A DNA stretch of 35,071 nt. Origin: Methanosphaera sp. (GTDB lineage Archaea; Methanobacteriota; Methanobacteria; Methanobacteriales; Methanobacteriaceae). The notes below the pieces were generated by a model. The model ran no database searches. It was not told where the DNA came from and saw only the letters and a program-made list of their open reading frames with translations. Below are positions 9,040-23,844 of the stretch, in pieces; position 1 is the stretch's first letter; each line of letters starts with the position of its first letter. The position numbers and the translations under genes are program-made. Location of the stretch: assembly GCF_016282985.1 (NCBI RefSeq), contig NZ_JAEELZ010000093.1, positions 1 to 35,071 of the forward strand. Direction: 5' to 3'.

Positions 9040-9501
9040 ATGGATTTAATTATATTTTATTCAAGAACAAACAATACTAAGGAAGTTGCAGAATTAATTG
9101 CTGAAGAAAAAAATGCAGAACTTCTAGAAATTAAAGATAAAAAAAGTAGATCAGGGCCACTTGGTTATGTTATAGGAGCTATTGATTCTTTTCGAGGAAA
9201 AAAAACTGGAATTAACTATGAAAAAAATGATTTAAGCAAATATGATACTGTTTACATAGGTACTCCTGTTTGGGCTTCAAAACCTACTCCAGCTATAGTT
9301 CAATTTATCGAGGAAAATGATTTTTCCGGAACCAATGTTGTTACTTTTGCAACATTTATGGGAAGTGGTGGTGAAGCAACAATTACCGCCATGAATAATA
9401 GGATTAAAGATAAAGGCGGTAAGATTAAACGTTCTTTTGCTTTTAGGATGACTGGAAACGATAAGAAACAGTTAGTTCAAGAAGCTTTAAACGATGATTA
9501 A
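9040..9501 (+). CDS. Flavodoxin family protein (first of three)
   Basis: The protein has 153 residues in a short-chain flavodoxin layout: YSRTNNTKEVA (7-17) is the FMN-phosphate loop, YIGTPVWASKPTPAI is the first isoalloxazine loop with an aromatic residue, and TFMGSGGEAT is the second. It should bind FMN and act as a one- or two-electron carrier or quinone-reductase-like protein in the cytoplasm. It lies 11 bases after argC with AGGAAG before the ATG, so it may be read from the same transcript. A T-rich tract at 9505-9530 follows. Its redox partner is not identifiable. Confidence 0.88.
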   Translation: MDLIIFYSRTNNTKEVAELIAEEKNAELLEIKDKKSRSGPLGYVIGAIDSFRGKKTGINYEKNDLSKYDTVYIGTPVWASKPTPAIVQFIEENDFSGTNVVTFATFMGSGGEATITAMNNRIKDKGGKIKRSFAFRMTGNDKKQLVQEALNDD

Positions 9502-9680
9502 ACTCTTTTTTATATTTTTTTTATTTTTAACTACATATTTTATAAAATACTTTGAAAAATAAATCCAATTTTATTTTAAATCAATGATTTTTTATTTTTG
9601 ATTAAATAAGTTTAAATAAATTTATTTTTATAGAATATATTAAAGAAATTTAAGTCATGTAAATTTTTATGGTGTATTAT

Positions 9681-10148
9681 ATGAGAAGTTTAGTTGTTTT
9701 TTACACAAGATCAGGAAATACGGGATTAGTCGCACATACCATTAAAAGAGAAATAAAATCCCATATTAAAGAAATAACCGATTATACAACACAAAGAACC
9801 GTTTTTGACTATATGTTCACAAGTTTAATCGATTCAGCAAGTATAAATCCTAGAAAAATAGACATAGATTACTACGAAACCATTTTTATTGGAACTCCCA
9901 TATGGTTAGGAAGCATTACTCCTGCAATAAAAAAAATTATAGATAATACCGATTTCAAAAATAAGAATGTAGTACTGTTTAATACTATGAAAATTGGTGG
10001 TAGCCATAATGCAATGAACAAAATGGCTAAACTGGTACGAAAACAAAACGGAAATGTAGTCGGAGCATTTTCTATAAGAACAAACTGTTCCGATTTGGAA
10101 ATTATGAGTCGTACACGTGAAGCACTAAATGATTTAAATTTAACTTAA
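9681..10148 (+). CDS. Flavodoxin family protein (second of three)
   Basis: I choose ATG 9681 over ATG 9669 because it follows GGTG with good spacing and begins the protein at MRSLVVFYTRSGNTG, the normal flavodoxin N-terminus; this gives 155 residues. YTRSGNTG is an intact FMN-phosphate loop, and FIGTPIWLGSITPAI matches the loop of the upstream paralogue. The pair with the 9040 gene clearly arose by duplication. The 179-base gap before it is AT-rich and should hold its promoter. It is probably an FMN electron carrier; the partner is unknown. Confidence 0.86.
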   Translation: MRSLVVFYTRSGNTGLVAHTIKREIKSHIKEITDYTTQRTVFDYMFTSLIDSASINPRKIDIDYYETIFIGTPIWLGSITPAIKKIIDNTDFKNKNVVLFNTMKIGGSHNAMNKMAKLVRKQNGNVVGAFSIRTNCSDLEIMSRTREALNDLNLT

Positions 10149-10149
10149 A

Positions 10150-10650
10150 ATGGCGAAAAATATGTCTTCTATAATAATCTTCTCATCAAACAAAAAAACC
10201 AAATTTATATCCCAAATTATTCAAGAAAAAATTGAAGCTGAAATAGTTGAAATTAAAGACTTGAATAAAAAAACTGGTATCCTAGGAAATATTAAAAATA
10301 ATTATAATGCACTTCGCTCAAATAATACTGACATTTATCCTGAAACAATTGATTTAAATGGTTATGATTTAATTATCGTTGGAAGTCCCTCCACATTTGG
10401 TGGAATATCACCCTCAATATCTACATTCATAGAAAATAATTCATTTAAAAATAAAAAAGTAGTGATATTTACCACCACCAATTCAAGACAGGGTTATGAT
10501 GTTTTAAAACATATGAAAAAGAAAATCGAAAATAACGGTGGAATAATTTTAAACTCGTTTATTATGAGAGTCAATAACAAAAGTGAAAATGAAATAAAAA
10601 TCAACACATTAAAAATCATTAAAGAGTTAGATCTGGATTTATATTCGTAA
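10150..10650 (+). CDS. Flavodoxin-like protein with degraded FMN loop (third of three)
   Basis: The reading frame of 166 residues begins one base after the stop of the second flavodoxin. A second ATG at 10162, after GGCGA, is equally possible and would start at the fold itself. The order of segments matches the two upstream flavodoxins (IIIFSSNKKTKF, then IVGSPSTFGGISPSI), but the phosphate loop has lost the Ser/Thr-x-Thr/Ser-x-Asn-Thr pattern and the aromatic Trp of the flavin loop is replaced by Phe/Gly. It may bind FMN poorly or serve another role. The frame is intact over its whole length, so it is not a pseudogene by that measure. Confidence 0.75.
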   Translation: MAKNMSSIIIFSSNKKTKFISQIIQEKIEAEIVEIKDLNKKTGILGNIKNNYNALRSNNTDIYPETIDLNGYDLIIVGSPSTFGGISPSISTFIENNSFKNKKVVIFTTTNSRQGYDVLKHMKKKIENNGGIILNSFIMRVNNKSENEIKINTLKIIKELDLDLYS

Positions 10651-19664: not shown

Positions 19665-20225
19665 ATGAAAGCTATTTCAGTTATTGCCAGCCCCAGAAAG
19701 AAAGGAAATTGTAGTCAAATAGTAGAATACATTACTGAAGGGTTGAAAGAAAAAAATTCCACTAATAAAATTTACTTTATAGACGACCTGAATATCAACA
19801 CATGCAAGGCCTGCAGAATATGTAAAAATATGGATAAACCTTCAAAATGTATTATAAAAGATGATTTTATTAAAATAATGGATGAAATTGAAGAATCGGA
19901 TATTTTTATATTTGCTGCTCCAAATTATTTTGGTGAAATAAATGCACAGGGACATATTTTTATAAATAGATTCTATTCTATGACAAAAACTACTCCCAAC
20001 CAATTAAAAAATAATCCCAAATGTGTTATAATCCATACTTACGGTGCTAATGAGGGACATTATGACAAATACATAAATAAACGATCCCGAGTATTTGAAT
20101 CAATTGGTTGTGAAATAGTTGAAATATTAAGCGTTGGAAAAAATAAGCCAAGTATTGGAAATTGTGATGATTTAATTGAATATGCAAAAAATCTGGGCAG
20201 ACGGCTGGGTGAAAAAGATGACTAA
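19665..20225 (+). CDS. Iron-sulfur flavoprotein (Isf-like, NADPH-dependent FMN reductase fold)
   Basis: The 186-residue protein starts with MKAISVIASPRKKGN, the FMN-phosphate loop of the FMN reductase fold, and carries Cys47, Cys50, Cys53 and Cys62, a compact Cys cluster like the [4Fe-4S]-binding motif of methanogen Isf proteins (here CX2CX2CX8C). APNYFGEINA supplies the flavin loop. Isf proteins pass electrons from ferredoxin to oxygen or peroxide and may protect against oxidants. GTGAT stands before the ATG. Its last eight bases overlap the start of the next gene, so it is co-translated with the first acidic paralogue. A close relative lies at 23263. Confidence 0.85.
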   Translation: MKAISVIASPRKKGNCSQIVEYITEGLKEKNSTNKIYFIDDLNINTCKACRICKNMDKPSKCIIKDDFIKIMDEIEESDIFIFAAPNYFGEINAQGHIFINRFYSMTKTTPNQLKNNPKCVIIHTYGANEGHYDKYINKRSRVFESIGCEIVEILSVGKNKPSIGNCDDLIEYAKNLGRRLGEKDD

Positions 20226-20781
20226 TATTGAAGAGATAATTGAAATAATTAAAAAAGAAGACAGAGTTATTAAAGTGGACATAATGGATGATGAATGTAA
20301 AAAAACCATTACCCAACTAGAAATGAAAAGACTGGAAGAACTTGTCCCTCTTATCAACAGGGGTCTTGAAGAAACTTTAAAGGAGGAATATGCTCTAATT
20401 GTTCTTAAAGATAAAAGGGATGTTTTTCTTGAAGATGAAGAGTTAATTCCTACCCTAACATTAATGAGTGAAAATGGTACATTAATTGGTGAAGAAATTT
20501 ACGACCCTGAAGAATTAGAAGAATTACGTGAAGATCCAAACGTATATTTTATATCTGAACATTTTGTAACATATCCCTCACTTTCAACTCCCGGAGATAA
20601 ACAATTTTTTGTAGTGAATCAATTACGTGGAGAAATGGAATGTGAAGAAAAAATAGAAGAAATTGTTTCAAGTTTATCCATTGCCACACCCTCAACTGAA
20701 GCCGACCATTACATTAAAGATTTGTATGATATGGATTATGTTGATGGAATAATTACTATGGTAATTGGAGTTACTCTATAA
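20218..20781 (+). CDS. Acidic protein of unrecognised family, paralogue 1 of 3
   Basis: I start at ATG 20218, after GGTG at 20207-20210, giving 187 residues; an earlier in-frame ATG at 20176 lies deep in the flavoprotein gene. Shared marks of the family are LEMKRLEELVPLIN near residues 34-47, a beta-rich middle with NGTLIGEEI, DPEELEELREDPNV, FVTYPSLSTPGDKQFFV, and a C-terminal TEADHYIKDLYD followed by a hydrophobic strand. It is soluble, strongly acidic and without Cys motifs or a known fold that I can name. It is closest to paralogue 3 (21956). Coupling to an iron-sulfur flavoprotein suggests a redox-linked role; no function is claimed. Its stop abuts the convergent HxlR stop directly. Confidence 0.75.
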   Translation: MTNIEEIIEIIKKEDRVIKVDIMDDECKKTITQLEMKRLEELVPLINRGLEETLKEEYALIVLKDKRDVFLEDEELIPTLTLMSENGTLIGEEIYDPEELEELREDPNVYFISEHFVTYPSLSTPGDKQFFVVNQLRGEMECEEKIEEIVSSLSIATPSTEADHYIKDLYDMDYVDGIITMVIGVTL

Positions 20782-21189
20782 TTATTCTATTTCCAACAAT
20801 TCTTTATAACCCACCCTACATTTTTCTTGGAAATTATCCACCAGATCGGTATCACAATCTAAAACATCAACACCATACAAAACCAGATCATAAATAATTT
20901 TGTTTAATTTTTTTGCTTTAGGCGTTAAAATATACTCAGTATTACTACGGTTATCCCCGTTACATGCTCTTTTTTCAATTAAATTTTTATTTTCCATGAA
21001 TTTTAAAGTATCTGATAAAACAGAATTATTTAAAGTAGGTTTATTCTCTTTAAATTCACTGAAATGTTTTTTTCCTGTATACATATCGCGTATAATTGCA
21101 ATTACCCATTTTCTACTTATTAGTTCCAAAGTTGCATCTATTGGACAATCAGGTCCACCCCAATAATTAAAAATTTCATTATAATCCAT
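20782..21189 (-). CDS. HxlR family winged-helix transcriptional regulator
   Basis: The 135-residue protein is an HxlR (MarR-like) DNA-binding protein: CPIDATLELISRKW (15-28) is the family signature, residues about 51-71 hold the recognition helix, and RSNTEYILTPKAKKL (81-95) forms the wing and following helix. Cys15 occupies the place of the redox-active N-terminal Cys of bacterial relatives such as HypR and YodB; further Cys are at 76, 112 and 124. It therefore may sense oxidants or electrophiles; this is inference. The gene is divergent from the operon that begins at 21325, with a paired palindrome between them, and convergent with paralogue 1 without any gap. Confidence 0.9.
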   Translation of the reverse strand: MDYNEIFNYWGGPDCPIDATLELISRKWVIAIIRDMYTGKKHFSEFKENKPTLNNSVLSDTLKFMENKNLIEKRACNGDNRSNTEYILTPKAKKLNKIIYDLVLYGVDVLDCDTDLVDNFQEKCRVGYKELLEIE

Positions 21190-21226
21190 AATATAAAATA
21201 TGTTAAGTTAAAAAAATAACTTTTTG

Positions 21227-21260
21227 GTATGTTAGAACATACAAGTAGGTTAGAAAATAC
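21227..21260. promoter_or_regulatory. Tandem palindromic operator candidate for the HxlR regulator
   Basis: GTATGTTAGAACATAC at 21227-21242 has perfect seven-base arms around AG. A second copy, GTAGGTTAGAAAATAC at 21245-21260, keeps 13 of 16 positions. The copies start 18 bases apart, close to two helical turns. They lie 38 bases upstream of the regulator's start codon and just before a TATA-like TTTAAATTATA (about 21270-21280) of the divergent operon, where binding could block or aid the transcription factors. Confidence 0.6.
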
Positions 21261-21324
21261 AATAAGTTATTTAAATTATAATAAACAAGTTTAAAATATA
21301 ATAAAAAAATAGGGAGGAATTTTC

Positions 21325-21927
21325 ATTACAAAAAATCCGGATGATGTACTTCAGGAAGTATTAGACACTCTTACACCTTTGAGAGGAGTTCAAAGTGTAG
21401 GTGTGTTAAATGATGATGTACGTAAACATATCCTTGAAATTGAAATGGAAAAAACGGGTGAACTTATACCGGTAATTAACGTTGGCGTTCATGAATGTTT
21501 GAACAGAGAATATACTGTTGCAATAATTAAAACAGCAACATTCCGACCACCTCCAACCCCTACAGTACAATTAGTTGACAACAAAGGAAATATTCTGGGT
21601 GAAGAGATTGTTAGTGTAGAACAAAAGAAAAAACATGAAGCTGATGAAAATGCTACTTTTGTAGCACCAGATTTTGTTTTAACCGTTGATCCAAATGATA
21701 TACAAAAAACACTAACCACAGATTATTTAGAAAAAAATAAGGCAAAACAAGCATTTATTTTACCACCTGTTCAATTTATCGAAGTTGAAGAACTGGAAGA
21801 TACCTGTGATGTTGTATCCAGTAGTCCCGATCCGTTAGCAGATTTGTATATAAAAGAATATTTTAACTTTGAAGATGATGCAAAATTAGCTTCAATTTTA
21901 GTTGGATTTAATGTTAAAAAAGATTAA
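21325..21927 (+). CDS. Acidic protein of unrecognised family, paralogue 2 of 3, with probable ATT start
   Basis: The frame is bounded by an in-frame stop at 21310-21312. GGGAGGA at 21312-21318 sits six bases before ATT 21325, and no ATG, GTG or TTG occurs until TTG 21379, which lacks a ribosome binding site. Starting at ATT gives 200 residues and an N-terminal region of 38 residues before IEMEKTGELIPVIN, against 33 in paralogues 1 and 3; TTG would leave 20. The protein is the most divergent of the three: GNILGEEI and DPLADLYIKE are kept, but the FVTY and GDKQFFV segments are replaced and a Pro-rich strand is added. It is the first gene of a four-gene operon under the operator candidate. Function is unknown. 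Confidence 0.7.
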   Translation: MTKNPDDVLQEVLDTLTPLRGVQSVGVLNDDVRKHILEIEMEKTGELIPVINVGVHECLNREYTVAIIKTATFRPPPTPTVQLVDNKGNILGEEIVSVEQKKKHEADENATFVAPDFVLTVDPNDIQKTLTTDYLEKNKAKQAFILPPVQFIEVEELEDTCDVVSSSPDPLADLYIKEYFNFEDDAKLASILVGFNVKKD

Positions 21928-21955
21928 TTCCAACCTACTTTTTTTAGGTGATACT

Positions 21956-22531
21956 ATGAGTATTAAATCAGATCTTATCGCATTACTACTAACCGATGAA
22001 TCAATAATGATTGCAGCACCCATGTCTGATGAAATGAAAAAACAAGTTCTAAAACTAGAAATGAAAAGATTAGAAGAACTGGTACCTTTCATAAATGAAG
22101 GAATGGAAGAAGCTTTTGAAGAAGAAGATGCAATAGTGGTTATATTAGACAACACAGTTAAAAATGAAAGAATAGAAAATTCATATGATGAACAGGACAC
22201 CAGTTTTACTCTTAGAACAGAATCAGGACAAATCATTGGTGAAACAATAATGGACGAGGAAGAACTTGAAGAATTAAGAAATGATCCAAACGTTTTCTTC
22301 TTGTCTGACAATTTTGTAACATATAGTAATCTTTCAAAACCCGGAGAAAAACAATTCTTTGTCATGAGTTCTACAAAAAGCTCATTTTTCACCGATACAA
22401 ATCCGGAAAGTCTTGTAAGTAGTTTAACTGTTGCAATTCCATCTACAGAAACAGACCATTACATTAAAGATTGTTTTGATTTACCTCATGATGAACCTAT
22501 AGGGACTATGATTATTGGTTATACAGAGTAG
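21956..22531 (+). CDS. Acidic protein of unrecognised family, paralogue 3 of 3
   Basis: Start ATG 21956 follows AGGTGAT at 21946-21952, giving 191 residues. It resembles paralogue 1 closely: LEMKRLEELVPFIN, GQIIGETI, EEELEELRNDPNVFF, FVTYSNLSKPGEKQFFV and TETDHYIKD are all in the same order. The two are probably products of recent duplication. It is acidic and soluble, without a recognisable catalytic motif. The gap to paralogue 2 is 28 bases and to the QueG-like gene nine bases, so these belong to one transcript. Confidence 0.78.
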   Translation: MSIKSDLIALLLTDESIMIAAPMSDEMKKQVLKLEMKRLEELVPFINEGMEEAFEEEDAIVVILDNTVKNERIENSYDEQDTSFTLRTESGQIIGETIMDEEELEELRNDPNVFFLSDNFVTYSNLSKPGEKQFFVMSSTKSSFFTDTNPESLVSSLTVAIPSTETDHYIKDCFDLPHDEPIGTMIIGYTE

Positions 22532-22540
22532 GAGATAATA

Positions 22541-23242
22541 ATGTCCATCGTAGAATATATTGGATCTTTATCTGATGTTTATGGAATTGCTGACTTTTCA
22601 ATTGAAAAGGAAGAATTAATTGAAATGTATGGTGAAGATATCTGCAAGTATCCTTATGCCATAGCAATTGGTCATAAGATGATAGAAGAAATCATTGAAA
22701 AAATACCTTTAACATACACCGATGATGACCTTGCTAAGGAATATCTTGACGAATATTTTAATTCTTTCCAAAGAGTTTCCAAGATTGCTGATAAAATTAT
22801 TGATTATATCCAAAATGAAGGATTTAATGCAATCAAATTAGATGTTTCAGGCACAAATCCTGAATTAAATCTTAAAAAACCATTCAGTAATAAAGCCAGT
22901 GCAAATCTTTCGGGAATTGGTTGGCTGGGAAAAAATAATTTACTGACTACAAAAGAATTTGGTCCGCGACTAACTTGGGCAACTGTATTAACCGATGCAC
23001 CTTTGGGTGAATATGCCGGAAGACCCATCGAATCTCTATGTGGAGATTGCCAGATGTGTGTTAAAGCGTGCCCTGGTAAAGCAATTGTTGATTTGCCAAA
23101 TCCAAAGGAATCATATAGTCCGGAAAAATGTGGTGAATTTTTGATGAAACGTAAAGAAAGCGGTCATCAAGTAGCTTGTGGAATGTGTCTTTACATTTGT
23201 CCTTTTGGAAATAAAAAATCTAAAGAATTAATGGGATGGTAA
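22541..23242 (+). CDS. QueG-like double [4Fe-4S] cluster protein
   Basis: The 233-residue protein matches the core of epoxyqueuosine reductase relatives: the GIGWLGKNNLLTTKEFGPR segment (125-143) with the cobalamin-side loop, then two ferredoxin-type Cys sets, Cys167/170/173/177 and Cys197/213/216/220, the latter ending in ICPFG. It lacks the C-terminal HEAT repeats of true QueG (usually over 300 residues). Archaea use archaeosine, not queuosine, so another reductive reaction is likely, perhaps corrinoid-dependent. GGAG lies before the ATG. It sits in the operon after paralogues 2 and 3 and before an iron-sulfur flavoprotein that could pass it electrons; that is inference. Confidence 0.8.
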   Translation: MSIVEYIGSLSDVYGIADFSIEKEELIEMYGEDICKYPYAIAIGHKMIEEIIEKIPLTYTDDDLAKEYLDEYFNSFQRVSKIADKIIDYIQNEGFNAIKLDVSGTNPELNLKKPFSNKASANLSGIGWLGKNNLLTTKEFGPRLTWATVLTDAPLGEYAGRPIESLCGDCQMCVKACPGKAIVDLPNPKESYSPEKCGEFLMKRKESGHQVACGMCLYICPFGNKKSKELMGW

Positions 23243-23262
23243 AAAATTACGTGGTGAATTAT

Positions 23263-23844
23263 ATGAAAGTGTTAACCTTAATAACCAGTCCAAGGAAACA
23301 TGGATATACTAAACAAATTGTTGATAGACTTACAATAGGTATTAAAGATAATGATGGAACAAATGAAGTTTTATTCATGGATGATTTTAATATTCAACAC
23401 TGTACCGCATGTAGAGCTTGTGAAAAGGGTGGAGGATGTGTATTAGATGATGATTATAATTTAATTATGGATAAAATTAGGGAAGCTGATTATTTTATTT
23501 TCACAGCACCAATATATTACAATGACATTGCAGGATATTCCAAAATGTTCCTAGACAGATTAGGTTCCTGTAATTATGATCCAGAATTAACAATACCTGA
23601 AACTAAAGCTTTATTAATGATTACTCATATGTCAACAAACATTAATCCATTTGTTATCGAAAATACCCATAGATGCTTAGCAACAGGCAACTTTAAAGTT
23701 AATAAAATTTTAGATATTGGTAACTTAATGGTTGATGGAAAACTTGAAGAATTTGAATTAGAAGATTATGAGGACATAGGTTATGAATTAGAAGAGTATG
23801 AAATCATTCCTCATAAACTAGATTTAGACTCTGCAACACTCTAA
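23263..23844 (+). CDS. Iron-sulfur flavoprotein (Isf-like)
   Basis: ATG 23263, after GGTGAA, is chosen over ATG 23236, which overlaps the previous gene and has no binding site; the protein has 193 residues. MKVLTLITSPRKHGYT is the FMN loop and Cys47, Cys50, Cys53 and Cys59 form CX2CX2CX5C, within the CX2CX2CX4-7C pattern of Isf. APIYYNDIAG gives the flavin loop. It is a paralogue of the 19665 protein, so the two operons of this region each carry one. The stop overlaps the convergent uvrC stop by four bases. The likely role is electron transfer or oxidant detoxification. Confidence 0.87.
   Translation: MKVLTLITSPRKHGYTKQIVDRLTIGIKDNDGTNEVLFMDDFNIQHCTACRACEKGGGCVLDDDYNLIMDKIREADYFIFTAPIYYNDIAGYSKMFLDRLGSCNYDPELTIPETKALLMITHMSTNINPFVIENTHRCLATGNFKVNKILDIGNLMVDGKLEEFELEDYEDIGYELEEYEIIPHKLDLDSATL

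Follow-up and report, generated by a model that had tools for sequence, protein, structure and literature searches.

The methanol:coenzyme M methyltransferase system MtaABC-RamA was described in Methanosarcina and is also present in Methanosphaera, which lives on methanol and H2, and in some Methanobrevibacter; methanol-driven methanogenesis in gut archaea of these two genera is a recognised route to methane. Corrinoid proteins of the MtaC type are inactivated as their cobalt drifts to Co(II), with Co(I) being restored by an ATP-driven activase. RamA restores Co(I) in methylamine corrinoid proteins and has homologues that possibly serve other pathways (PMC2933860); in addition, ferredoxin or flavodoxin has been named as the likely donor for a related bacterial activase (PMC6739815). 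Our literature search returned no paper naming an accessory gene at the MtaABC-RamA system here, and a search for the M. smithii locus tags likewise returned none.

The window, a stretch of 35,071 nucleotides of Methanosphaera sp. analysed as a whole, comes from a genome of 1.86 Mb over 151 contigs and harbors at positions 19665-23844 an island comprising isfA-AP1, a convergent HxlR gene and AP2-AP3-QueG-like-isfB, with uvrC on the minus strand after isfB (Table 1). The initial annotation had listed three acidic paralogues (AP1 to AP3) of an unrecognised family, two Isf-type flavoproteins, a QueG-like double-cluster protein devoid of HEAT repeats and an HxlR regulator with an N-terminal Cys, all of which our analysis bears out, with three corrections: the genes number seven in all, HxlR included, AP1 starts at 20218, inside the 3' end of isfA, and AP2 apparently starts at the ATT codon at 21325. 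No ATG, GTG or TTG start in AP2 preserves the conserved N-terminus, and the apparent ATT start lies behind a GGAGG. At the same position, the codon is ATT or ATA in ten island copies and mostly ATG in the mta-linked copies (one ACG, one GTG); the island copies of AP2 appear to use a conserved non-canonical start codon.

Table 1. Features of the island, in window positions.
Feature	Position	Strand	Basis or remark
isfA, flavodoxin-fold iron-sulfur flavoprotein	19665..20225	+	PF03358 E 1e-13; CX2CX2CX8C
AP1, acidic family clade II	20218..20781	+	paralogue alignment, tree; 8-base overlap with isfA
HxlR-family regulator	20782..21189	-	PF01638 E 1e-13; Cys15 ahead of helix-turn-helix domain
Palindrome GTATGTT-AG-AACATAC, candidate HxlR operator	21227..21242	.	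intergenic comparison
GGAGG, AP2 ribosome-binding site	21313..21317	+	sequence
AP2, acidic family clade I (methanol-locus clade), Cys58	21325..21927	+	apparent ATT start
AP3, acidic family clade II	21956..22531	+	paralogue alignment, tree
QueG/RdhA-like, cobalamin-binding-region motif and two 4Fe-4S clusters, without HEAT repeats	22541..23242	+	Fer4_16
isfB, iron-sulfur flavoprotein	23263..23844	+	PF03358 E 2e-15; CX2CX2CX5C; 7d38 E 6e-11

IsfA and IsfB both score over the PF03358 cut-off (FMN_red/flavodoxin fold) and resemble the Isf iron-sulfur flavoproteins in this fold and, less certainly for IsfA, in a compact CX2CX2CXnC motif. Judged against the CX2CX2CX4-7C of Isf, the X5 spacing of IsfB lies within the range whereas the X8 spacing of IsfA is longer. 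What sets the two apart from Isf is the acidic partner encoded in the same operon, to which IsfA is fused in one species pair. The QueG-like protein, over cut-off for Fer4_16, has a CX2CX2CX3C motif and four more Cys, making eight clustered Cys that would hold its two 4Fe-4S clusters. It aligns best with corrinoid enzymes (QueG 5d08, E 9e-11, and also RdhA), sharing the motif region and the two clusters with the core of QueG epoxyqueuosine reductase and reductive dehalogenase, but differs from them in its length of 233 aa and in falling under both family cut-offs (QueG, TIGR00276: 51 bits, E 9e-14, cut-off 200; reductive dehalogenase, TIGR02486: 55.5 bits, E 8e-15, cut-off 160). The match to QueG is confined to residues 114-222 of the 233, which leaves no space for HEAT repeats. 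An orthologue in another genome (G006) is an orphan with an in-frame stop, with neither AP nor Isf adjoining. The HxlR regulator matched PF01638 at 51 bits vs. a cut-off of 20.8, with the RrpB-like model under cut-off. Elsewhere, at 9040-10650, three flavodoxin-like genes lie in a row, two of which match PF03358 (one under cut-off).

The three acidic paralogues, alignable end to end (AP2 and AP3 at 30% and 47% identity to AP1) and with a computed pI of 4.1-4.4, are the only AP copies in the source genome (E 1e-80 to 1e-95). None matched a Pfam or NCBIfam model, and a profile search of the PDB with AP found nothing. The AF2 models of AP2 (pLDDT 86) and AP3 (pLDDT 80) display a mixed alpha/beta fold, for which Foldseek gave no significant match among solved folds in the PDB. 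A nitroreductase or CblC-like fold was considered for AP and rejected, the Foldseek trend being weak for AP2, weaker for AP3 and without profile support.

Using a profile of AP1-3 on 139 Methanobacteriaceae genomes, we found AP in 36, comprising 20/20 Methanosphaera and 16 genomes from five other genera. A phylum-wide search with a 50-sequence AP profile returned the same 36 genomes and two chance-level matches only; outside the phylum the search was one low-sensitivity scan, and the viral contigs searched yielded no AP. MtaB (PF12176) occurs in 31 of the 139 genomes and RamA over cut-off in 32, every one of them with AP, while the five genomes with AP and without MtaB are all Methanosphaera drafts. 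Outside Methanosphaera, the genomes with AP and those with MtaB are the identical 16 of 119, with a chance of p 4e-20 by simple counting that ignores phylogeny and 1e-12 on permuting within genera, shared descent within genera remaining in both. The other 103 genomes of the family lack AP and MtaB alike. In a draft that also has no MtaB (G112, C161:14104-15491), the RamA sequence is broken up into three reading frames, by decay or assembly error.

The neighbourhoods of AP tell the same story. NCBIfam equivalog or subfamily models identified MtaA, MtaC2 and RamA next to AP, and the MtaB neighbour at one locus (L061) was slightly under its NCBIfam cut-off but over that of PF12176. In the genomes with MtaB outside Methanosphaera, the gene next to AP is that of MtaA, in most cases tail to tail, or that of RamA; among the 19 copies there, none has an Isf, QueG-like or HxlR neighbour and nearly all adjoin methanol methyltransferase genes. 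AP is thus like the MtaABC-RamA system in its genome distribution and in the adjoining genes (mtaA, mtaB, mtaC2, ramA), but AP is none of MtaA, MtaB, MtaC or RamA and is without a family model. These data argue that the AP family very probably belongs with the methanol methyltransferase system. As AP adjoins mta, linked inheritance alone would yield much of this co-occurrence, but AP2 was kept after leaving the locus.

In the AP tree of 81 rows, clades I and II separate with support of 100/99. Clade I (38 rows) comprises all 23 mta-linked copies, 12 island AP2 and 3 solo copies; clade II (43 rows) is confined to Methanosphaera, with AP1, AP3 and solo copies. Cys58 in window AP2 numbering is Cys in 36/38 clade I copies and Ser in two, vs. 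Ala in 91% of clade II, with Cys in 1/43, nearly all copies of that clade having lost it. Clade I, with its near-invariant Cys and its place beside mtaA/ramA, is best explained as the ancestral AP form. In several Methanosphaera species, the clade I gene lies between mtaA and mtaB, divergent from mtaBC, and the AP2-type copy sits either there or in the island: three genomes (G000, G126 and G117) have no AP2 in the mtaA-mtaB gap and do have an island AP2. All island AP2 are nested among the mta-linked Methanosphaera copies, within the mta-linked clade (100/99), which indicates from the tree that AP2 moved out of the methanol locus. In approximately ten genomes the island AP2 is retained while a copy at mta was looked for and not found; where measured, these island copies share 84-97% identity with window AP2. 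One genome (G124) has AP2 at both sites (L067 7608-8237 and L068 6776-7375) as sister copies, which may reflect a recent duplication or gene conversion.

The island itself recurs in many Methanosphaera genomes, between a peptidase/Yip pair and uvrC, with AP1, AP2 or HxlR sometimes missing, and gene order recurring across species places it far beyond chance. The initial annotation had paired acidic paralogues with Isf and surmised that they were partners of the redox proteins. Within the genus, the pairing is upheld, the partner idea is partly supported and the Isf-AP link is real, as exemplified by: 1) the conservation of the island, which holds 46 of the 81 AP copies; 2) a single in-frame ORF of 372 residues joining isfA and an AP1 copy in a two-contig genome (G110); and 3) an open frame of equal length at the corresponding gene of G109. 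This fusion is direct sequence evidence of partnership, in one species pair only. Outside Methanosphaera the surmise of redox partners is not supported: no other genome with AP has the Isf island, so that electron delivery by Isf cannot be a universal role of AP. The proposed profile search with neighbourhood counts, which took as adverse an AP family found mostly without flavoprotein or HxlR neighbours, gave that outcome outside the genus and not inside it. The data do not support the island as the home of the family, and its reading as redox-responsive takes second place. AP tracks MtaB and RamA, a link that the initial annotation did not see.

We favour, at somewhat better than even, the view that AP is a new accessory family of the methanol:coenzyme M methyltransferase system, with the island being a genus-specific redox annex. 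In Methanosphaera the family grew by clade II, with AP1, AP3 and the solo copies, and a clade I copy, AP2, relocated to an island that also encodes two iron-sulfur flavoproteins, the QueG-like corrinoid/iron-sulfur protein and, in many cases, HxlR. We surmise that AP may act as docking or adaptor subunits through which flavin/iron-sulfur electron donors of low potential serve the maintenance of corrinoids, e.g. when MtaC is reactivated from Co(II) to Co(I) with RamA, and that HxlR would raise the dose of AP2 under redox stress. Docking with Isf, together with membership of the MtaABC-RamA gene set, would suit such an adaptor, and the best alignment of the QueG-like protein with corrinoid enzymes fits it too, without proving it; electron delivery, albeit our preferred mechanism, is a tentative choice that may well prove wrong. 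More speculative still, and rather doubtful, is the notion that AP supplies a fifth, missing component to the methanol methyltransferase system of gut methanogens. It would have a new fold, with its conserved Cys acting in corrinoid handling, and Methanosphaera would have used duplicated AP copies, fused or coupled to Isf, to build a second reactivation route driven by flavin/iron-sulfur proteins. Found in each of the 31 Methanobacteriaceae genomes with MtaB and without a family model, AP is a testable missing part that comes with a list of partners (MtaA, MtaC, RamA and Isf). It also offers a new handle on those mtaABC carriers that have not been seen growing on methanol (PMC6120340).

The main rival to the electron-delivery adaptor is a regulatory role, in which AP senses, for instance, corrinoid or methanol status and controls mta expression or MtaABC activity, with its paralogues controlling other redox genes. 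The divergent orientation of clade I AP from mtaBC in Methanosphaera speaks for such a role, as do one conserved Cys and the failure to find a catalytic motif in AP. Against it, no DNA-binding domain was found by Pfam and none is evident in the AF2 secondary structure of AP2, and the IsfA-AP1 fusion points towards interaction with a protein instead of with a gene; we regard a regulatory AP as unlikely. No better placed is the reading close to that of the initial annotation, an island for redox or electrophile stress in general. HxlR would respond to oxidants by inducing flavoproteins together with acidic scaffolds, and methanol metabolism would be incidental. The HxlR regulator with its Cys15, the Isf-AP pairing and fusion, and a conserved palindrome (GTATGTT-NN-AACATAC) in the HxlR-AP2 intergenic region speak for it, the palindrome being perfect in 4/7 regions, compensated in G122, mismatched in G126 and absent from G124. 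HxlR is found only in islands that hold AP2 (8/12 vs. 0/7 without AP2; Fisher p 0.013). Many islands have no HxlR, however, and outside Methanosphaera AP is at mta and not at redox genes; moreover, AP does not occur in the remaining 103 genomes of the family, which all lack MtaB and in which HxlR and QueG-like relatives are common. We thus hold the stress island to be improbable as well.

That AP is itself an enzyme that binds flavin or corrinoid, its fold being a degenerate version of the nitroreductase one, seems less probable again: the top Foldseek match of AP2 was the FbiB C-terminal domain (TM 0.40), followed by several nitroreductases, but with E 0.19 and a probability of 0.51, whereas FbiB reached E 1.1 and a probability of 0.12 with AP3, and hhalign of AP against a nitroreductase profile gave 0.2%. 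A passive hitchhiker, carried with mta by linkage and without a role, would account for the tight AP-mta linkage outside Methanosphaera but is very hard to reconcile with the clade I AP2 kept in the island where none was found at mta.

In four Methanosphaera genomes, the solo copies of clade II (L063, L065, L076 and L080) share one common neighbourhood, comprising flippase-like, 365-aa membrane-protein-like and 356-aa genes with an ArsA-like ATPase upstream. Another solo AP copy (L079 3088-6771) lies downstream of cobalt-transport-like (CbiM/N/Q-like) genes.
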